Positions 26,344 to 44,545 of a stretch of 64,000 nt of DNA are shown here, piece after piece. The stretch covers positions 23,732 to 87,731 of the forward strand of contig NZ_JANQCD010000021.1 in NCBI RefSeq assembly GCF_026672275.1. Direction: 5' to 3'. Source of the DNA: Marinifilum sp. D737. GTDB lineage: Bacteria; Bacteroidota; Bacteroidia; Bacteroidales; Marinifilaceae. The position numbers were made by a program, and so were the translations under genes. A model generated the notes under the pieces. The model had not been told where the DNA came from, did not search any database, and saw nothing but the letters and a program-made list of their open reading frames with translations. Position 1 is the first letter of the stretch; every line of letters begins with the position of its first letter.

Positions 26344-27168
26344 CTATCCTGGGAATTTCGGGAACTTCTGGAATTCAGGATCACGCTTTTCAAGGAATGC
26401 ATTCTTACCTTCCTGCGCTTCTTCCATTAGGTAATACATCATGGTTGCATCACCGGCAAATTCCATTAATCCGCGCTGTCCGTCTAATTCAGCGTTCAAA
26501 CCACGCTTGATCATACGAATTGCCATTGGGCTACGCATCATGATTGTCTTACACCACTCAACAGTTTCGTCTTCCAATCTTTCCAAAGGTACCACAGTGT
26601 TTACCATACCCATGTCCTCAGCTTCTTTGGCAGTGTACTGCTTACAAAGGAACCAGATCTCACGAGCTTTCTTCTGGCCTACGTGGCGAGCCAAATAGTT
26701 CGAACCAAAACCAGCATCGAAACTACCCACTTTAGGACCAGTCTGTCCAAATTTTGCATTTTCAGAAGCAATGGTCAAGTCACAAACCACGTGAAGTACG
26801 TGCCCACCACCAATTGCATATCCGTTAACCATAGCAATTACAGGCTTAGGCATAGAACGGATAGCCTTGTGCAGATCCAATACATTCAAACGAGGCACAC
26901 CGTGCTCATCGATGTATCCACCAACACCTTTTACATTCTGATCACCACCTGAACAGAAAGCCTTATCGCCAGTTCCGGTCAACACAATTACACCAATATC
27001 ACTTCGCTCGCGGCAGATATCCATAGCATCCAACATATCGAAGTTGGTTTGCGGACGAAATGCATTGTACACCTCAGGACGATTGATGGTGATTTTTGCG
27101 ATTCCTTCGAAAAATTCGAATTTAATATCTTCGTATTCCTTAATGGTAGTCCAGTTTCTAGTTGTCAT
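26344..27168 (-). CDS. menB: 1,4-Dihydroxy-2-naphthoyl-CoA synthase MenB
   Basis: This 274-residue crotonase-fold enzyme has the expected length and motifs: [22 protein letters not shown] (CoA pocket), [12 protein letters not shown] (oxyanion hole) and [22 protein letters not shown], which is specific to MenB. It cyclises o-succinylbenzoyl-CoA to DHNA-CoA. Its start overlaps the menD stop by 4 bp (ATGA), so it is translationally coupled as the last gene of the menI-F-D-B operon. The menE product, its substrate supplier, is encoded about 10 kb away. Confidence 0.95.
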
Positions 27169-28862
27169 ACCTTCTCTTTTATAGTTTTAAAATAATTTAT
27201 TAGCACTTGATCGTTTATCGTTCTTGGCGTTTTAATCTCCAGAACGGCAGCTCTTTCGTTTGCTGCATAGAATTCAGGCAGAACGTTTTCTACCTCTGTT
27301 TCATTTTCGGCGTAAAAGTAATCCAATCCGTAGGTTTCTGCCAGCTTATCGGCACGGTATTCCTGTACCGTCTCAAAATATTCTTCCAACTCATCCACAC
27401 CCGATGGTCCAGATATGAATCGGAAAATTCCTCCTCCTCCATTGTTGATGAGAATAATTTTCAGATTTGGCTGCAGGTATTTGTTCCACAATCCATTCGA
27501 ATCATAGAAAAAGCTGATATCTCCTGTAATCAGCGTAGTAGTTCTGCCATTCACCAAGGAAGCACCTGCCGCTGTTGATGTGCAGCCATCTATTCCACTG
27601 GTTCCTCGGTTCGAGTTATATGTAATTTGATCGGATGTCTTGAACAATTGCGCATATCGAACTACCGAGCTGTTCGCCAACTGTAGATTTCCCCCCTCAG
27701 GAATAGCATCTAAAATCTTCTCGAAAGCTTTCATATCACTCCATTGTAAATTATCCAGATAAGTATCATGAATTTCGCCTACTACTGAATCTTTCTCTCT
27801 CCAGAGATTTGCATATCCACTTTGCGTATGATTCAATGCTGGCAACAACTGACGGAAAAAGGCAAGTGGAGACACATCAATTTGAGAAGTCAGGTTCTTA
27901 AAAGTATCAATAAAATGATCCTCTTGCCCTACAAACCAATGTTCCTTTGGACGATAATCACGTAAGAAAGATTTGATCATTTTTGACACCAAAGGTCCAC
28001 CAAAATTAATCAGCAAATCAGGCTGAAAATTCTTTTTCTCTTCCTCCTTCACCGAACAGATTACCCTGTCAATGCAGGGCAAGAATTTTTCTCCATGCAA
28101 ATTGGCAACCGATTCGGTCATTACCGCCACATTTGGTTTTTGAGCCAATTGTCTCAGCAATTCATTCAGTTCTGGCTGCTGATGAAGCAAACCTGCCAAT
28201 ATCAAAATCTTTTTATTCGAATTGAAAGCTGTAGCCAAATCTTCCACACTTTCCTTGCTCAATTCATCTACCGAACTCACTTTACGGATTACCCTTTCAT
28301 CCGTATCAGGATATTGTTTTACACCATACAAAGGCTCTCGCAAAGGAAAATTGATATGAACCGGTCCCATTCTACCCGATTGCGCCTTTGTTAAGGCCTC
28401 GTTAGCCATGCGATTCAAATACCAGCAATCATCAGGATTATTGGCATCCAAAGGCAATTGGTAACTGTCTTTCACAAAACCTTTGAAAACATCAGGCTGT
28501 GGAATGGCCTGGCTATCATCCTGACCGATCCATTCCGTTGGGCGATCGGCCGAGATTACCACCAAAGGCAATCGTTGATAGAAAGCCTCGGCAACAGCAG
28601 GTCCGTAATTCAACAGCGCCGTTCCCGATGTACAAACCAAACCCACGGGTTTTCTGGTTTGTTGTGCAATCCCCAAAGCAAAATAAGCAGCACTGCGCTC
28701 ATCCACAATCACCAAACTTTTAATTCGCTGATCTTTTGCAAAAGAGATGCTTAGCGGAGCATTTCTGGAACCTGGCGATACGATAACATACTCCATTCCT
28801 TTGGCCCAGCAGATATCAATCAGTTCTTTCACACCTTTGATATCTGAATAATTGCGCTCCAT
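27165..28862 (-). CDS. menD: SEPHCHC synthase MenD
   Basis: This thiamine-diphosphate enzyme (565 residues from the ATG at 28862) condenses isochorismate with 2-oxoglutarate. It starts [16 protein letters not shown], which matches the usual MenD beginning. In-frame ATGs at 28907 and 28961 would add residues with no family counterpart. [10 protein letters not shown], the glutamate region near [29 protein letters not shown] and the ThDP-binding [10 protein letters not shown] ... [12 protein letters not shown] stretch are diagnostic. It lies between menF and menB in the same operon. Confidence 0.93.
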
Positions 28863-28983
28863 GTATTTTGTATTTTCTTTTATTATTGTGGTACTTTCTG
28901 AATTCATTCGCTTTCTATTGACCTTATTGGTAGAATACTTTAATACTTCTACCTTTCGCAATCCAAATTTAAAACAAATTCGC

Positions 28984-30087
28984 TTATTTAATCACTTTAA
29001 GCAAAGTTTGCGCTTTAAAACAGGTTTCCATCCATTCTTTTTCAGGATCAGAATCAGCAGTGATTCCTCCACCTACAAATAGTGCCATACTTTCCTGAAG
29101 CACCTTCATACTTCTCAAATTCACAAACAAAGCCAAACCGCCATCAGCATGAATAGGGCCTAAAAATCCAGCATAATATTCTCTCTTATGTTTCTCCACT
29201 TTTCGGATTAAATCCATTGCCTTATTTTTTGGCAAGCCACAAACCGCTGGTGTTGGATGCAAGGCTTGAGCAAAACTGGAGATCTGATCGAAACTTAATG
29301 CTGTGTTTGCTTTATAGGTAGTTTTTAGATGAACAACATTACCCGCTTGCACTGTAAAAGGACCTTGCTTCTGATAATCATCAATCTGATAATTGGAAAG
29401 AAGCTCTTCGATATATTTACTCACGTATGCTTGCTCTTCTATCTCTTTTTTCTCCCATTCAACAGATTGAACTGCACTATCACCTAACTTCTGTGTTCCT
29501 GCTAAAGCTACTGTTTCTATGGTTTTTCCATCCGAATTTAAAAACCTCTCCGGACTAGCACCTATCCACAATCCTTCACTTGGTATATCTATCATGGAAA
29601 CAAAAGCATTGGGATAAGTTTTATTCAACCGAAGAAAAATTGATGCTGCATCTTTACGTCCTTTGCCATTCAACACATGTACTCTGGAAAGAATCACTTT
29701 ATCAAGCTTTTTACTCTTTAAATCGGCAAGCATTTCCTTGATTTGCTCCAGGTAATCCTCCTTCGAACTTTCGTAAACTTCCGAATCCTCATCCTTTTGA
29801 TCAGGTAAGTCTGAAAAATCTACAAACTGTGTTGATTTTGAACTAAACTCGAATTCTGGATCTATGAAATAAGCAGACTGTTCTTCATCCAAATCGAAAG
29901 GCGCAAATAAAAAACCTTCCTTCCCTTTCAAATCCAATAAATTAATAACCCTAGATGGACTTGTTTGAATTCCGATTTTAATTTCGTGATCTCCCGGCAA
30001 GGAATAAGCATAAAACGAAAGCCTTTTTTGTAAGCACTGCTCTAAAAAATATTGTATTGATTTTTCTCTGTCCTCCAATTGGCTCAT
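28984..30087 (-). CDS. menF: Isochorismate synthase MenF
   Basis: The 367-residue chorismate-binding enzyme carries the family motifs KLDKVILSRV (catalytic Lys), GASPERFL, ETVALAGTQKLG, HPTPAVCGLPK and REYYAGFLGP with its metal-binding acids. It converts chorismate to isochorismate, the first committed step of menaquinone synthesis. The start is 3 bp after the menI stop. menD begins about 120 bp downstream if the 28862 start is right. PabB or TrpE are unlikely because the TPAVCG-type motif and gene context are those of isochorismate synthases. Confidence 0.9.
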   Translation of the reverse strand: MSQLEDREKSIQYFLEQCLQKRLSFYAYSLPGDHEIKIGIQTSPSRVINLLDLKGKEGFLFAPFDLDEEQSAYFIDPEFEFSSKSTQFVDFSDLPDQKDEDSEVYESSKEDYLEQIKEMLADLKSKKLDKVILSRVHVLNGKGRKDAASIFLRLNKTYPNAFVSMIDIPSEGLWIGASPERFLNSDGKTIETVALAGTQKLGDSAVQSVEWEKKEIEEQAYVSKYIEELLSNYQIDDYQKQGPFTVQAGNVVHLKTTYKANTALSFDQISSFAQALHPTPAVCGLPKNKAMDLIRKVEKHKREYYAGFLGPIHADGGLALFVNLRSMKVLQESMALFVGGGITADSDPEKEWMETCFKAQTLLKVIK

Positions 30088-30090
30088 TCT

Positions 30091-30507
30091 CTATTTTTTA
30101 ATGATCACATTGGTAATTCTGCAAATCGATACAAGTTTCTCCTGTTCATTTAGCACATTCACTTCAACAATATGAGTCATTTTGCCTTTATGAACAAACT
30201 TAGCCTTGGCGATAACCTTTCCTTTTCGCAGGCTTCTGATATGATTGGCATTAATCTCCATACCTTTCACATCGTAGTTCTTTAAATCGGTATGAATTAC
30301 AGAAAGTGCACTTCCTACTGACTCCGCCAATGCCAAAGTAGCTCCTCCATGCAATATCTTCATGGGTTGCCAATGGTTTGAAGTCACCTCCATTTCTGCT
30401 ACCAAATAATCTTCACCTACTTCTGTATATATAATGCCCAAATGCTCCATTAAAGTTTCGGAGCACATCTTATTTAAAGATTCTAATGCCTCAGTATTTT
30501 TAATCAT
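30091..30507 (-). CDS. menI: Hotdog thioesterase, probable DHNA-CoA hydrolase
   Basis: The 138-residue PaaI/YdiI-type hotdog protein carries LHGGATLALAESVGS (about 53-67), with the Glu that acts as catalytic base in YdiI, and MEINANHIRS. E. coli YdiI hydrolyses DHNA-CoA, and the lead position in a menF-D-B operon makes that role likely here; the symbol is inferred from context. A TATTTTTG on the minus strand (30512-30519) matches the -7 consensus, but it lies so close to the ATG that the mRNA would be almost leaderless. The upstream csp terminator blocks easy read-through. Confidence 0.8.
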   Translation of the reverse strand: MIKNTEALESLNKMCSETLMEHLGIIYTEVGEDYLVAEMEVTSNHWQPMKILHGGATLALAESVGSALSVIHTDLKNYDVKGMEINANHIRSLRKGKVIAKAKFVHKGKMTHIVEVNVLNEQEKLVSICRITNVIIKK

Positions 30508-30616: not shown

Positions 30617-30808
30617 TTAGTCAATTTTTACATTAACTGCATTTAATCCTTTTTTTCCTTCTACAACATCGTAAGTTACGTTATCACCTTGATCAACTTT
30701 ATCAATCAAACCTGTAACATGAACAAAAATGTCTTCTTGTGTTTCATTGTTTTTAATAAAACCAAAACCTTTGGTTTCATTAAAGAATTTTACTGTACCT
30801 GTAGGCAT
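30617..30808 (-). CDS. Cold-shock domain protein
   Basis: The 63-residue CSD protein has RNP1 (KGFGFI, about 13-18) and RNP2 (DIFVHVT, about 26-32), the aromatic patch that binds single-stranded RNA and DNA. It probably acts as an RNA chaperone. The start MPTGTVKFFNE matches the family exactly. The upstream 150 bp contain an inverted repeat (30830-30850) near a TACATTTA element, and the gene has its own terminator, so it is a single transcription unit. Confidence 0.95.
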   Translation of the reverse strand: MPTGTVKFFNETKGFGFIKNNETQEDIFVHVTGLIDKVDQGDNVTYDVVEGKKGLNAVNVKID

Positions 30809-30829
30809 TATTTAAAAATTTTAAAATTA

Positions 30830-30850
30830 TTACGTAGTAAATGTACGTAA
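30830..30850. promoter_or_regulatory. Inverted repeat upstream of csp
   Basis: TTACGTA-N7-TACGTAA is perfect in both arms. It surrounds TACATTTA (minus strand, 30838-30845), which matches TAnnTTTG at all but the last base. It could be an operator over the csp promoter or a hairpin early in the csp mRNA. Confidence 0.5.
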
Positions 30851-31012
30851 ATTGATTTAATAACTAAACAATTATCTGATTATTTTCAATTTTCTTAACA
30901 AAGAATTACCATTAAGCATACAACACCTGATTTTCAATATGATATTAAGAAAAGCCAGGGAATTAAACATACCAAAATGATGAACAGAAAATAAAAATCT
31001 GTAAAAATGACT

Positions 31013-31043
31013 TTTGGTAGTTTAAATTTTAATCCTACATTTG
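31013..31043 (+). promoter_or_regulatory. Consensus Bacteroidota promoter of the asnA leader
   Basis: TTTG at 31013-31016 and TACATTTG at 31036-31043 are separated by 19 bp. This fits the major sigma factor consensus of the phylum exactly. Transcription should start near 31050, about 14 nt before the first leader ORF. Confidence 0.82.
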
Positions 31044-31063
31044 TAAGCAAGAAAGACAAGGAA

Positions 31064-31138
31064 ATGAGACAATTCAACAACAATAATAATCTTTTCAATA
31101 ATTTGATGAATAATTCATCAGAAGTGGGAAGGCTATAG
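31064..31138 (+). CDS. Asparagine-rich leader peptide 1 of asnA
   Basis: A 24-codon ORF starts MRQF and carries 9 Asn codons: five in a row at residues 5-9, then pairs at 12-13 and 16-17, both AAC and AAU being used. It ends with TAG at 31136-31138. It is too short for ordinary gene callers. Its final codons overlap the first arm (31125-31134) of a mutually exclusive RNA structure, so its translation can report the supply of charged tRNA-Asn. It starts about 14 nt after the predicted transcription start and is related to leader 2 (shared M-x-Q-F-(F)-Asn-run layout). The peptide itself probably has no other function. Confidence 0.85.
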   Translation: MRQFNNNNNLFNNLMNNSSEVGRL

Positions 31139-31192
31139 TTGTTATCGAAAAAATATTTTACACGAGCCTTCCCAAATTGGGAAGGCTTTTTT
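31125..31192 (+). promoter_or_regulatory. Transcription attenuator 1 of asnA (antiterminator/terminator switch)
   Basis: Arm A TGGGAAGGCT (31125-31134) can pair over 10 bp with arm B AGCCTTCCCA (31165-31174). Arm B can instead pair with arm C TGGGAAGGCT (31178-31187), which is followed by a T-run, forming an intrinsic terminator. Arm A is identical to arm C. A ribosome stalled on Asn codons (31076-31114) leaves A free, so A:B forms and transcription continues. A ribosome reaching the stop (31136-31138) masks A, so B:C terminates. Confidence 0.88.
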
Positions 31193-31203
31193 ATTTATAT
31201 CAA

Positions 31204-31260
31204 ATGGTACAATTTTTCAACAACAATAATAATAACACTAATAATTCTCCCCCAAGGTGA
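31204..31260 (+). CDS. Asparagine-rich leader peptide 2 of asnA
   Basis: An 18-codon ORF encodes MVQFFNNNNNNTNNSPPR, 8 of 18 residues Asn (six in a row). It ends with TGA at 31258-31260. It sits between terminator 1 and terminator 2 and resembles leader 1 at its start, suggesting that a whole attenuator module was duplicated. Its stop codon lies inside the first arm of attenuator 2, so a terminating ribosome would mask that arm. It has no ordinary protein role that I can see. Confidence 0.85.
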   Translation: MVQFFNNNNNNTNNSPPR

Positions 31261-31319
31261 GGAAGTAGCATTGTTATACCATATTACAAGCCTTTCTCAC
31301 CACAGAGAAAGGCTTTTTT
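31256..31319 (+). promoter_or_regulatory. Transcription attenuator 2 of asnA
   Basis: Arm A GGTGAGGAAG (31256-31265) pairs with CTTTCTCACC (31292-31301) over 10 bp with one G-U wobble. The competing terminator is AGCCTTTCTC (31289-31298) with GAGAAAGGCT (31305-31314) and a T-run. The arms differ in sequence from attenuator 1, but the logic is the same. asnA starts 40 bp downstream. Confidence 0.86.
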
Positions 31320-31358
31320 ATTATCAACTTATTTCTATTAATTAAAATTTTAAAAATC

Positions 31359-32396
31359 ATGAAAAACTTAATTATTCCTAAGGCTTACAAAAGCATCTTA
31401 TGTCCTGATGCAACTGAAAAAGCAATTAAATTTATTAAAGATCAGTTTCAACTACAGCTCTCTTCGGAACTGAAACTACGTAGAGTAACTGCACCTATGA
31501 TTGTTCTAAAAGGTACTGGTTTAAACGATGATTTGAACGGAATTGAACGCCCTGTAGCATTTCCAATTAAAGGACTGGGAGAACAAACTGCAGAAGTTGT
31601 ACATTCTTTGGCAAAATGGAAAAGATACATGCTTGGCGAACTTCAAATCCCTGAAGGTAAAGGACTTTATACCGACATGAACGCCCTTCGCCCTGACGAA
31701 GATTTTACCAACCTTCACTCCATTTATGTGGATCAATGGGATTGGGAAAAATCAATCAGTAAAGAAGAACGAAGCATTGATTTTCTAGTGAAAACTGTAA
31801 AGCAGGTTTATGCATCAATTAAAAGAACAGAATACATTTTAAGTGAATATTACCCGGCATTAAGCCCTCAATTGCCGGAAAAAATTACTTTTATTCACTC
31901 TGAAGAATTATTGGAAAAGTATCCTGATTTAAGTCCAAAAGAAAGAGAAACTGAAGCTGTAAAAGAGTTTGGCGCAATCTTTATCATTGGTATTGGAGGT
32001 GAATTGAAAAACGGTGAACCACATGATGGTCGCGCCCCTGACTATGACGATTGGACTACTCCATCGGTTAACGGATACAAAGGCTTAAACGGAGATATTA
32101 TTCTTTGGAACCCTGTTCTTGAACAAGCTTTCGAGATATCATCAATGGGAATTCGTGTAGACGAAAAAGCATTGTTGGAGCAACTTGAGATTAAGGGAGA
32201 AGAAAAGCGAAAAGAACTAATGTTCCACAAAAAATTATTGTCTGGAGAATTACCTTACTCTGTTGGTGGAGGAATTGGTCAATCGAGATTGTGCATGTTC
32301 TTATTGCGCAAAGCACACATTGGAGAAGTCCAATCGAGTATCTGGCCAGATGAACTGAGAGACACTTGTAAAAAAGCAGGAATTATTTTCTTGTAA
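31359..32396 (+). CDS. asnA: Aspartate-ammonia ligase (asparagine synthetase A)
   Basis: This 345-residue class II aaRS-like enzyme makes asparagine from aspartate, ammonia and ATP in the cytosol (E. coli AsnA is 330 residues). Diagnostic segments are VTAPMIVLKGTGLNDDLNG (about 44-62), the LHSIYVDQWDWE stretch (about 118-129), GAIFIIGIGGELKNGEPHDGRAPDYDDW (about 206-233) and the C-terminal GGGIGQSRLCMFLLRK with the class II motif 3 Arg. The ATG at 31359 fits the family start. It is preceded by a consensus promoter and two Asn-codon leader ORFs with terminator/antiterminator switches, so it is probably induced when tRNA-Asn charging falls. It is monocistronic, ended by a shared hairpin. Confidence 0.97.
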   Translation: MKNLIIPKAYKSILCPDATEKAIKFIKDQFQLQLSSELKLRRVTAPMIVLKGTGLNDDLNGIERPVAFPIKGLGEQTAEVVHSLAKWKRYMLGELQIPEGKGLYTDMNALRPDEDFTNLHSIYVDQWDWEKSISKEERSIDFLVKTVKQVYASIKRTEYILSEYYPALSPQLPEKITFIHSEELLEKYPDLSPKERETEAVKEFGAIFIIGIGGELKNGEPHDGRAPDYDDWTTPSVNGYKGLNGDIILWNPVLEQAFEISSMGIRVDEKALLEQLEIKGEEKRKELMFHKKLLSGELPYSVGGGIGQSRLCMFLLRKAHIGEVQSSIWPDELRDTCKKAGIIFL

Positions 32397-32462: not shown

Positions 32463-33686
32463 CTATCTGTGTGCGATAGGATCTGCATTTCCATCAGGAT
32501 CATTATTCACATATCCATCGGTATGGATAGGACCTAATAACAATAAACCACAAACGTGAGGTGCAGCCATTGAAGTTCCACTCATAGTACCATACCCTCC
32601 ATTCAAATAGCATGACTTAATATCTACACCAGGAGCACAAACATCAACAGGTGTTCCATAATTTGAGAATGAAGCAAAATTGTCATTGATATCAGAAGCT
32701 GATACAGTATAAACATTTGGATGGTTAGCTCTAGCTGGAGAATAATATAAAGCATCATCAGATGAGTTACCTGCAGCAATTGAAATCAAAATTCCCAAAT
32801 CAGCAACAGACTTTACAGTCTCATCGTAAGCATCGTAAGTATAACGAGATTTTGGTCCTAAACTCATATTAACAGCATCGCCAGGCTGACCTTCAGCAGC
32901 AATATAATCCAATGCAGCCATCGACCAAGACATATTACCATTACCTCTTCTGTCAAGAACACGGCAAGAAACAACTTTTGCATTTGGAGCTACACCAATA
33001 ACACCAATAGAGTTGTTTAAAGCTGCAACAGTACCAGCAACGTGAGTACCATGTCCATGCTGATCATCTGGAGTAGTTTTACCTTGAGTAATGAAAGTTT
33101 TACTTCTTGCAACATCAACGTTCAAGTCTGGGTGATCCATATCAATACCAGAATCAATAATCCAGGCTGTTTTTCCAGTACCATCACCAGCACCACCTAC
33201 GCGTGTAATTCCCCATGGAGTTTCTTGTGCAGGTTGAGTACTTCCACCTCCTGGTTTTCCCAATGAGATTTGAATATCCTTCTCAACACGCTTTACTCTT
33301 GGATCAAGTAACAATTTTGCTACCTGATTTTCATTTAGTTTTACAGAGAAACCTTGAATTGCAGTACTGTAAGTATGCTCAACATTTTCTTCTGAGATTC
33401 CATTGCCTTTTAGGAACTTAACTACGTGCGACTTCATGCGAACTGCTTTCTTTTCGTAGCCTTTTAATCCTTTTAATTCACTCTTTAAAACAACATCATC
33501 ATTAAATTGAACAACATAGGTACTCTTACCGCCTTTATTATCAGCAAATCCCGATTTCACATTTAAGGTAGCTTCTGAGCTTTCATTCAACATTTCATCC
33601 TCAATAGAATTATCACAGGATGTTACTAAAGAACCAATTAGCGCTAATAATAGCATGGCTTTCATAGAATTTAAAAAATTCTTCAT
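32463..33686 (-). CDS. Subtilisin-like (S8) serine protease lipoprotein
   Basis: The 407-residue protein has a type II signal peptide (lipobox LVTSC, Cys24), then an I9-type inhibitor prodomain (STYVVQFND ... RVEKD, about 55-137) and an S8 catalytic domain. The triad is clear: D178 (DSGIDMDHPD), H212 (HGHGTHVAGT) and S372 (GTSMAAPHV), with N307 (AAGN) for the oxyanion hole. The C-terminus stops soon after the Ser helix and has no sorting domain. It is probably a surface- or periplasm-tethered protease that matures by cleaving its prodomain. It is a single gene convergent with asnA. Confidence 0.92.
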   Translation of the reverse strand: MKNFLNSMKAMLLLALIGSLVTSCDNSIEDEMLNESSEATLNVKSGFADNKGGKSTYVVQFNDDVVLKSELKGLKGYEKKAVRMKSHVVKFLKGNGISEENVEHTYSTAIQGFSVKLNENQVAKLLLDPRVKRVEKDIQISLGKPGGGSTQPAQETPWGITRVGGAGDGTGKTAWIIDSGIDMDHPDLNVDVARSKTFITQGKTTPDDQHGHGTHVAGTVAALNNSIGVIGVAPNAKVVSCRVLDRRGNGNMSWSMAALDYIAAEGQPGDAVNMSLGPKSRYTYDAYDETVKSVADLGILISIAAGNSSDDALYYSPARANHPNVYTVSASDINDNFASFSNYGTPVDVCAPGVDIKSCYLNGGYGTMSGTSMAAPHVCGLLLLGPIHTDGYVNNDPDGNADPIAHR

Positions 33687-42145: not shown

Positions 42146-44545
42146 ATGATCTGGAATAATATAAAAATCGCCTTTAGAAATCTTTGGAGAGATAAAACCT
42201 TTTCATTGATAAACATTAGTGGGTTGGCAATTGGTTTAGCCTGTTGTATCATTATATTTCTATTCGTTAGTAACGAATTAAGTTATGACAAATACCACAA
42301 AGATTATCAGCAAATATACCGCCTTGGCATAGAAGGAAAGTTAGGTGATATGGAAATGAAAGGACCTTTTACGTCTAACCCTATGGCTCCAGCTCTGCTT
42401 AGCGAATTCCCCGAAGTAGAGGAAGCTGTGAGAATAAACCGAAGTAGTTACATTATTCAAAATGAAGACAAAATATTCTCAGAAAACAGAATATTTTGGG
42501 TCGATTCTACTTTTTTCAAGCTATTCAGCGCTAACTTTATATCTGGTAATCCTACTAAAGCTATAAGTGAGTCAAGGCAAATGGTAATTACCAAAAGTAT
42601 GGCTTTAAAATTTTTTGGAAATATTGATGTCATTGGAAAAAATTTGAAAGTAAATCAAAATCAAATCTATACTATTTCTGCAGTAATTGAGGATTGTCCA
42701 TCCAACACGCATTTTCAGTTCGATTTTCTGATTCCCTATTTTGACTATTCACAATCCAGAGATAATTTTTGGTTAAACGATGGCAAGTACACCTATGTAA
42801 AACTTAAAAAGGGAACCAAACAAAGTGATTTTGATAAGAAATTAAATACACTCGTCACCAAGTATGTGGCTCCTGCATTGAAATCAGCTTTAAACATGAA
42901 TTATGAAGACATGGTAAAAGCGGGGAATTACTATCGCTTTTATTCACGTCCTATGAGCGATATTCATCTTCACTCTCACTCTACCTTTGAACTAGGCAAT
43001 AATGGAGACATTCTAAATGTTAGCTTGTTTACAATCATTGCCATTTTAATATTGGTAATTGCATGTATAAATTTCACAAATTTGAGTACTGCCAGATCAA
43101 GCAAAAGAGCTAAGGAAATTGGGGTAAGAAAATCCTTGGGTTCTTCAAAAACGAGGTTGATTTTTCAATTTTTATTCGAATCGGTACTGCTTAGTTTTAT
43201 TGCTTTTACCATTGCAATGATTATTGTTGAATTCGTTCTTCCAATAACTTCAGTTTTAATCGGAAAAGAATTGTCCTCTAACTATATAAACAACCCACAA
43301 TTGTTTTTTATTTTTCTTGGAATTTCAATTGCAACCGGATTATTATCGGGAACCTATGCAGCTTTTTTCCTTTCTTCTTTTAAACCAGCCAAAGTTCTAA
43401 AGGGAGAACTTTCGAAAGGAAAAAATAATTTATTGCTCAGAAAATCACTGGTCATTTTCCAATTCAGCATTTCCATATTTCTATTTATTGCCACTTTCAC
43501 GGTTTACAAGCAAATGCAGTTTATACAAGACAAAAAGTTGGGATTCGAAAAGGAAAATGTGTTGATTCTGAAAAATGCAGACGAAATAAGTAATATCAAA
43601 AGCTTTAAAGAAAGGATTCAATCTCATCCAGGAATTATTAGTTCTACTTTTGCTTCCGCCATTCCGGGTGAATTCTTAAATGGTAATATCATTGGAAGAA
43701 AAGCAGATTTAGATCCAAACCAATACAGTTTCAGAAGAATTAGTGCTGATGAAGACTATCAAAAAACCCTACAATTAGAGTTAGTAGAAGGACGTTTTTT
43801 CAATGAAGAGATTGCATCCGATTCATCTAAAGTATTAATAAACGAAGCTGGGGTAAAAGAATTAGGCTTAACTAATCCTATTGGAGAAATAATTGCTCGC
43901 GGGGTAAGGCGTCCTTTAACAATTATTGGTGTGGTGAAGGATATTCATGGCGATACCTTTCGCAATAAAATTCTTCCTTTGATTATATTACCAAAAGATT
44001 CGGAATATCAAACACGTTTGGCCATTCGTTATCATGCAAGCAATAAAAATGCAATCCTTGGGATCATCGAAAAAGAATGGAACAACTACACAAACAACAT
44101 TCCATTCGAATATTATCATTTGGATAATCTAATTTACGATTTGCACAAGAAAGAATATGCCACCATGCGAACATTTACAGCTTTTGCATGCTTGTCCATA
44201 TTAATAGCTATTCTTGGCCTACTGGGATTAAGCTCCTACACTACAGAACAAAGGATAAAAGAAATTGGCATCAGAAAAACCTTAGGATCATCGGTTGGAG
44301 GAATCATTAAAATGATGAACAAAGACTTTTTACAATGGATTCTTATTTCAATTTTGATCACATCTCCACTGGCCTACTTCTTTATGTCGAAATGGCTCGA
44401 AAACTTTGCCTATCGTGCAAGTTTAGACATTTGGATATTTATTGCATCTGGCCTGTTATCGATATTAATAGCAATAACAACCATTTCCATTCAAACCTGG
44501 AAAGCAGCCAATCAAAATCCTGTTGAATCTTTACGATATGAATAG
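42146..44545 (+). CDS. FtsX/MacB-fold ABC permease 2
   Basis: The 799-residue protein has the same architecture as its upstream neighbour: an N-terminal helix, a MacB-like periplasmic domain, FtsX helices (AKEIGVRKSLGSSKTRLIFQF), a second domain and a closing FtsX block (IKEIGIRKTLGSSVGGIIKMM). Identity to permease 1 is moderate at protein level, yet the C-terminal 44 nt are identical. The two may form a heterodimeric exporter with the shared ATPase. It ends the sigma-54-controlled operon, with a terminator at 44560. Confidence 0.88.
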   Translation: MIWNNIKIAFRNLWRDKTFSLINISGLAIGLACCIIIFLFVSNELSYDKYHKDYQQIYRLGIEGKLGDMEMKGPFTSNPMAPALLSEFPEVEEAVRINRSSYIIQNEDKIFSENRIFWVDSTFFKLFSANFISGNPTKAISESRQMVITKSMALKFFGNIDVIGKNLKVNQNQIYTISAVIEDCPSNTHFQFDFLIPYFDYSQSRDNFWLNDGKYTYVKLKKGTKQSDFDKKLNTLVTKYVAPALKSALNMNYEDMVKAGNYYRFYSRPMSDIHLHSHSTFELGNNGDILNVSLFTIIAILILVIACINFTNLSTARSSKRAKEIGVRKSLGSSKTRLIFQFLFESVLLSFIAFTIAMIIVEFVLPITSVLIGKELSSNYINNPQLFFIFLGISIATGLLSGTYAAFFLSSFKPAKVLKGELSKGKNNLLLRKSLVIFQFSISIFLFIATFTVYKQMQFIQDKKLGFEKENVLILKNADEISNIKSFKERIQSHPGIISSTFASAIPGEFLNGNIIGRKADLDPNQYSFRRISADEDYQKTLQLELVEGRFFNEEIASDSSKVLINEAGVKELGLTNPIGEIIARGVRRPLTIIGVVKDIHGDTFRNKILPLIILPKDSEYQTRLAIRYHASNKNAILGIIEKEWNNYTNNIPFEYYHLDNLIYDLHKKEYATMRTFTAFACLSILIAILGLLGLSSYTTEQRIKEIGIRKTLGSSVGGIIKMMNKDFLQWILISILITSPLAYFFMSKWLENFAYRASLDIWIFIASGLLSILIAITTISIQTWKAANQNPVESLRYE
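44492..44535 (+). repeat. 44-nt identity block, copy 2 (end of permease 2)
   Basis: Identical to 42035-42078. Confidence 0.9.

Follow-up and report, generated by a model that had tools for sequence, protein, structure and literature searches.

Results

The stretch of DNA analysed here (the window) spans 64,000 nucleotides of the Marinifilum sp. D737 genome. Between positions 31013 and 31358 of its forward strand lie, in order, a promoter-like site, leader ORF 1, hairpin 1, leader ORF 2 and hairpin 2, followed on the same strand by asnA (31359–32396), which encodes aspartate–ammonia ligase (asparagine synthetase A; Pfam AsnA PF03590, 345 bits) and whose product has 9v83, 11as and 4lns as solved structural relatives. 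Leader ORF 1 (MRQFNNNNNLFNNLMNNSSEVGRL) extends from an ATG at 31064 to a stop codon that ends at 31138, and 9 of its 24 codons specify asparagine. Because a longer ORF in the same frame opens at 31007, 5′ of the promoter-like site, ATG 31064 is the likely start. Leader ORF 2 (MVQFFNNNNNNTNNSPPR, 31204–31260) has 8 Asn codons among 18, carries Pro-Pro codons (CCC CCA, 31249–31254) 3′ of the Asn run, and ends 98 nt before asnA. Each leader precedes a terminator-like hairpin with a T-run. Hairpin 1 (31164–31188; T-run 31187–31192) pairs 5′ arm B1 (31164–31174) with arm C1 (31178–31188); in hairpin 2 (31288–31315; T-run 31314–31319), segment B2 (31288–31301), which comprises the 5′ arm and part of the loop, is partnered by arm C2 (31305–31315). 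A terminator scan of 30800–31420 returned three sites, the third on the other strand, compared with a mean of 0.2 in shuffled sequences.

Both B arms have a second potential partner on the same strand. Putative antiterminator arm A1 (TGGGAAGGCT, 31125–31134) overlaps the end of leader ORF 1 and can form ten pairs with B1, and arm A2 (GGTGAGGAAG, 31256–31265) overlaps the stop codon of leader ORF 2 and can form ten pairs with B2, including one G-U. The initial annotation had described this layout, which the sequence, the terminator scan and Pfam confirm, and had claimed a second partner for each terminator 5′ arm at the end of its leader, as the A1:B1 and A2:B2 pairs bear out. The promoter-like site TTTG-N19-TACATTTG (31013–31043, + strand) fits the Bacteroidota-type −33/−7 consensus, and the downstream element, TAnnTTnG, precedes leader 1 in all 21 close family loci, window included, but the full motif occurs in the window at chance frequency (5 seen, 4.4 expected). 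Transcription would probably start near 31050.

Three neighbouring features lie on the opposite strand. A menaquinone-type gene run (26344–30507) adjoins the leader and contains, by Pfam, an enoyl-CoA hydratase/isomerase fold, a TPP enzyme, a chorismate-binding enzyme and a small thioesterase, the first three presumably MenB-like, MenD-like and isochorismate synthase-like, respectively. A small cold-shock-domain protein gene (30617–30808) is divergent from the asnA leader, and a gene for a subtilase with an I9 propeptide (32463–33686) faces asnA.

The genome that contains the window encodes AsnRS (622.6 bits), and in 51 of 56 family genomes the AsnRS score exceeds the cut-off; thus free asparagine can set the charging of tRNA-Asn, as sensing of Asn-tRNA needs. 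The genome also encodes a second asparagine synthetase of the AsnB type. None of 20 asnB upstream regions has an Asn leader; these regions come from 19 of the 38 family genomes in which a match exceeded the cut-off, and that of the window's genome covers only 342 nt. Of 75 His4 matches in the genome, 20 were inspected in a search for His leaders, and none of these had a terminator.

To survey asnA loci we used a detector with three requirements: four Asn codons in a span of eight, a start codon, and an intrinsic terminator with its 5′ arm starting 15–125 nt past the last Asn codon. Of 233 asnA upstream regions fetched, 231 were tested, with L007 and L226 dropped for having less than 150 nt upstream; five asnA places from the order search were left out of the set (the G085 second copy, G254, the G247 second piece, G297 and G193). 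At least one Asn leader with a terminator was found in 48 regions and two units in 30, counts that are not independent, as the loci are related. Set to each of the other 19 amino acids, the same detector matched at most 5 of these regions (Leu) and never found two units. Elsewhere in these loci it found 3 units in 1,447 kb, and 4,620 dinucleotide-shuffled asnA upstream regions gave none (one with an earlier version). Over both strands of the 64-kb window it gives the two leader units and one weak, unrelated match at 44431. An Asn5 pattern matches six times in the 5.08-Mb genome, three times in these two leaders (two of the matches overlap in leader 2); reversed, it matches five times, but these repeats fit the pattern in either orientation and the control is therefore not independent. 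Both AAT and AAC occur at 5 of 10 family Asn columns in leader 1 and at 5 of 8 in leader 2.

In the window's family, 26 of 29 loci have a unit (20 two, 6 one); the remaining order sample contributes 18 of 79 (9 two, 9 one) and the class sample 4 of 15 (1 two, 3 one). The detector found no Asn unit in the order's best-scoring set (0/29) or in the named set (0/79). As 183 of the 231 loci lack the element, it is not a general asnA feature. By translation and alignment, both Asn-rich leaders are present in all 21 close family loci (asnA identity of about 78% or more, window included), and the detector finds two complete units in 20; in the remaining locus, L091, it does not find a second terminator. 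Of more distant loci of the same family, L105–L109 have one unit each, L103 and L104 none, and L110 is a fragment. Tandem pairs are also detected in eight other families of the same order (f25, f39, f63, f81, f83, f90, f100 and f117) and in one outside it (f152), making ten families with the window's. The proposal that an alignment of relatives would reveal conserved Asn-rich mini-ORFs is therefore upheld, within the close family loci and, as tandem pairs, beyond them. The Asn columns are not strict, as a non-Asn codon occurs in 5 of 10 family columns of leader 1 and 6 of 8 of leader 2, and apart from Asn and Pro the leader peptides vary in sequence.

By eye, L091, L236 and L240 are tandem, whereas the detector scores them as single. 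They are labelled two in the asnA tree, and their first units are counted as upstream, giving 33 upstream, 30 downstream and 15 single units. On this tree of 132 rows, the tandem label requires 7 changes, compared with 29.5 when labels are shuffled, and at least 4 of the 7 are forced by well-supported branches; the tree was built by a quick method, leaves 49 of 126 inner branches open and includes 20 of 80 named loci (every fourth). These label changes imply that the tandem arrangement was gained or lost more than once. Two loci with a single attenuator carry additional sequence between it and asnA. In L153, terminator-like fragments (GGCCTTCCC...) lie at about −140 to −85, behind the single Asn attenuator and with no second Asn leader; they are possibly the remains of a lost second unit. 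In L105, by eye, a long repeat-rich stretch (−270 to −1) connects the single attenuator to asnA.

The arms are positioned where a translating ribosome could control them. In 71 of 78 units, arm A starts 6–16 nt past the last Asn codon (32/33 upstream, 28/30 downstream and 11/15 single). The search for arm A was confined to sequence 3′ of the last Asn codon, and the position of the arm alone places it under a ribosome at the stop codon, so that this switch geometry arises partly by construction; the tight upper limit on the distance is not built in by the search. We modelled the ribosome as hiding 13 nt from the A-site codon onward. With the first Asn codon in the A site, the probability of A:B pairing exceeds 0.5 in 32/33 upstream, 29/30 downstream and 14/15 single units. 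With the ribosome on the stop codon, it does so in 0/33, 0/25 and 0/14, respectively, a count that covers 72 of 78 units, as six with a stop 13 nt or less from arm B, or past it, were left out. In both leaders of the window, modelled A:B probability is 0.97–1.0 at every Asn codon, 0.69–0.70 one codon past the last, and 0 before the stop; at the last Asn codon it is still at least 0.69 with footprints of 10–16 nt. Widening arm A2 changes the values for unit 2 from 1.0 on Asn codons and 0 at the stop to 0.83 and 0.15, respectively. The model thus predicts that each leader changes state immediately past its last Asn codon, and across the sample the predicted switch falls 0–3 codons past that codon in 74 of 78 units. 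With no ribosome, the modelled state is mostly read-through in tandem units (27/33 upstream, 23/30 downstream), compared with 5/15 single units.

On average, A:B pairing within a locus is stronger than when arms are swapped between loci (0/5,000 permutations as low, in each unit class); the locus's own B is the single best partner for A in only 9 of 50 distinct arms, because many arms are alike. For covariation we aligned 25 of the 48 upstream and single units (type 1), leaving out 17 of 21 family loci as near copies, L233 and L234 for odd arms, L147, and, as leader-2-like, L228, L229 and L232. In the B:C stem of this alignment, which spans several families, 94.7% of cells are paired and 22 cells are changed on both sides, compared with 6.9 in shuffles (0/500 as high); in the A:B stem, to which A1 belongs, 90.7% are paired and 11 are changed on both sides, compared with 5.3 (3/500 as high). 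Counted by pair, the excess is modest, with 5 of 9 B:C pairs changed on both sides (3.0 in shuffles, 28/500 as high) and 4 of 9 A:B pairs (2.4 in shuffles, 16/500 as high). The loop-adjacent pair is open in 8 (B:C) and 12 (A:B) of the 25 rows.

Compensatory changes in arms A, B and C, which the initial annotation proposed to look for, are therefore seen across families in the type-1 unit but not in family unit 2. In an alignment of 19 of 21 loci for that unit (L091 and the duplicate L094 left out), neither the A:B nor the 1:2 helix covaries beyond shuffles. Arm A is weak or missing in L225 unit 2 (−3.3 kcal/mol), L233 unit 1 (−4.9) and L109 (probability 0.46), and the first unit of the f83 pair has no good arm A. 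A four-strand (1:2:3:4) scheme for unit 2 was considered and rejected. Pairing of arm A2 with the Pro region into a hairpin (MFE −3 or lower) is predicted in 24/30 downstream, 4/33 upstream and 11/15 single units, but the mean z-score of this hairpin against shuffles is −0.18, its covariation is not above shuffles, and A:B mostly wins when arm B is available.

The two units are of different types, in that the downstream one has proline codons after its Asn run. A Pro codon occurs within five codons past the Asn run in 28 of 30 leaders 2 of tandem loci, compared with 5 of 33 leaders 1, and Pro-Pro follows the run in 16 of 30 compared with 0 of 33, in a sample that is small and partly composed of related loci. 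In a codon-by-codon model, a ribosome at 46 of 48 such prolines of leader 2, or at the Pro-Pro codons of the window, would mask arm A. A stop codon close to arm A is missing from seven leaders 2 (L086, L223, L230, L231, L238, L236 and L240); four of them contain PPP or PPPP (L223, L231, L238 and L240) and three Pro-Pro, and where the leader does stop at arm A, no more than two consecutive prolines occur. In L086, from the same genus, leader 2 is one base longer than in relatives in the run past the Asn codons; because of this extra base it has lost its nearby stop, and the ORF runs through the terminator region with Pro-Pro kept.

Discussion

Between the promoter-like site and asnA there are very probably two consecutive attenuators under ribosome control. 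The leader has the parts of an attenuator at the sequence level, namely an ORF rich in cognate codons, a terminator-like site before asnA and an alternative antiterminator arm, and in silico, partly by construction, a ribosome on Asn codons frees arm A and one on the stop codon masks it. The asparagine-sensing, two-step attenuator put forward in the initial annotation gains support from conservation, from covariation in the type-1 unit and from modelled folding. In such a mechanism, shortage of charged tRNA-Asn would slow the ribosome on the Asn codons, leaving arm A free to pair with the terminator 5′ arm and allowing transcription to pass. Once past the Asn run, a ribosome would instead hide arm A, and the terminator hairpin would fold. 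If termination occurs at both hairpins in vivo and the units act independently, RNA polymerase would have to pass both terminators, and two in series would multiply basal leak down and relative induction up.

It is unlikely that one unit alone regulates asnA, with the other a redundant or decaying duplicate. This reading draws on the 18 loci that the detector scores as single, such as L105–L109 and L228 (L091, L236 and L240, also in this number, are tandem by eye), on the degraded second terminator of L091 and on the leader 2 of L086 that lacks a nearby stop. Against it, close family loci keep both leaders throughout and two complete units in all but one, and the units retain distinct features in the same order across families, as the distribution of proline codons illustrates.

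We hypothesize that, with asparagine abundant, the proline codons of leader 2, by their modelled position, keep the ribosome parked over arm A. Tentatively, then, the leader could be a same-signal tandem attenuator with unlike stages, in which a plain three-arm Asn stage is followed by a 'sense-then-park' stage and the two together form a multiplicative AND gate, a possibility to which we give somewhat less than even weight. In stage 2, the Asn codons would provide a sensing pause that opens asnA, and Pro-Pro a second, built-in pause keeping the ribosome over arm A2 and closing the gene; in four leaders with no nearby stop, PPP or PPPP would substitute for the stop codon. According to passages of PMC5021804, a reporter showed that, when EF-P is missing, ribosomes held at polyproline increase termination at an intrinsic terminator lying 3′ of them.

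The same observations could be taken to mean that leader 2 reads proline or EF-P activity along with asparagine and is a two-signal unit. The Pro codons past the Asn run of nearly all downstream leaders and the EF-P effect just cited fit this idea, as does the Salmonella mgtCBR leader, which senses proline via Pro codons (passages of PMC3641672). We consider it improbable all the same, as a stall on proline is predicted to mask arm A2 and thus to favor termination, not induction. Shortage of proline would then repress asnA, for which no physiological reason is known to us.

Still more improbable, in our judgment, is that the Asn-rich ORFs work by translational coupling or through their peptides, with constitutive terminators. 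Leader ORFs may influence translation of the next gene, a hypothesis raised in passages of PMC4833913, but the effect described there involves distances of ~10–15 bp, whereas leader 2 lies 98 nt from asnA. Moreover, terminators with alternative arms sit between leader and gene, and the leader peptides vary except for Asn and Pro. Finally, chance proximity of low-complexity (AAT)n runs to ordinary terminators in an AT-rich genome can be dismissed almost with certainty: AAY repeats do occur elsewhere in the genome (three of six Asn5 matches) and the detector matches one unrelated window site, but the shuffle and amino-acid controls and the mixture of AAT and AAC codons argue against it, and the recurrence of the arrangement across families refutes it.

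Ribosome-mediated attenuators are known for trp, his, phe, leu, thr and ilv leaders. The two predicted asnA attenuators resemble these classical systems in having a short ORF rich in codons for the product amino acid, an intrinsic terminator and an antiterminator at the ORF end, and differ in their asparagine signal, their asnA target and the presence of two complete units in series. The Bacteroid-trp RNA (RF01692) is a trp attenuator. Described in passages of PMC2864571 as a cis-regulatory RNA motif of Bacteroidetes, and in that respect similar to the asnA leader, it has no match here at the gathering score. Indeed, no Rfam family matches at that score in the window or in 11 related loci, and a T-box riboswitch was rejected as a candidate, as the Rfam T-box model is unmatched at its gathering score in the window. 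The best match below the cut-off is Phe_leader (RF01859), which aligns at full length over unit 1 (30.7 bits, E 0.0029). It shares the overall layout of that unit, but its score is below the gathering score of 55, Asn codons replace Phe codons, and unit 2 is unmatched.

Other leaders have two regulatory elements before one gene. The Salmonella mgtCBR tandem attenuators, called a singular example and responding to different signals, likewise place two short ORFs in a single leader, with alternative RNA structures linked to each, and include Pro codons; as described in the available passages, however, the signals are ATP and proline and the stem-loops do not resemble intrinsic terminators (PMC3641672). 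The asnA leader has Asn codons twice and a terminator-like site in each unit, and falls outside the mgtCBR-type definition as given in those passages. ermB has two leader peptides before one gene, but its regulation is translational and induced by erythromycin, and its abstract makes no mention of serial terminators (PMC8274638). The rimP-leader has two serial terminators before a gene, one with a potential antiterminator, but the available passages make no mention of an amino-acid leader peptide, and the sole 'asn' match in that paper is an author's initials (PMC2965389). The word tandem is absent from the available part of an attenuation model paper (PMC1183508).

Searches of the open full-text literature, which mostly leaves subscription papers outside, gave no asparagine attenuator before asnA among the matches listed, as judged by title and start of abstract, and no same-signal tandem attenuator among the matches listed. 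A comparative attenuation survey is reportedly given in Lopatovskaya 2010 and could affect the novelty of these findings. Attenuation itself is a known kind of regulation; the asparagine signal and the same-signal tandem appear, at the level of sequence, to be new among the matches listed.

More broadly, asparagine would join the amino acids with predicted leader-peptide attenuation, and would do so in Bacteroidota, where such control is little described in the papers searched. The serial, same-signal design poses a testable question, namely how basal level and sensitivity benefit from a second attenuator. The proline signature further suggests that a well-placed ribosome pause can close an attenuator as well as open it. 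If the sense-then-park reading is true, the serial stages would constitute an AND gate for asparagine starvation that has been retained in ten Bacteroidota families.
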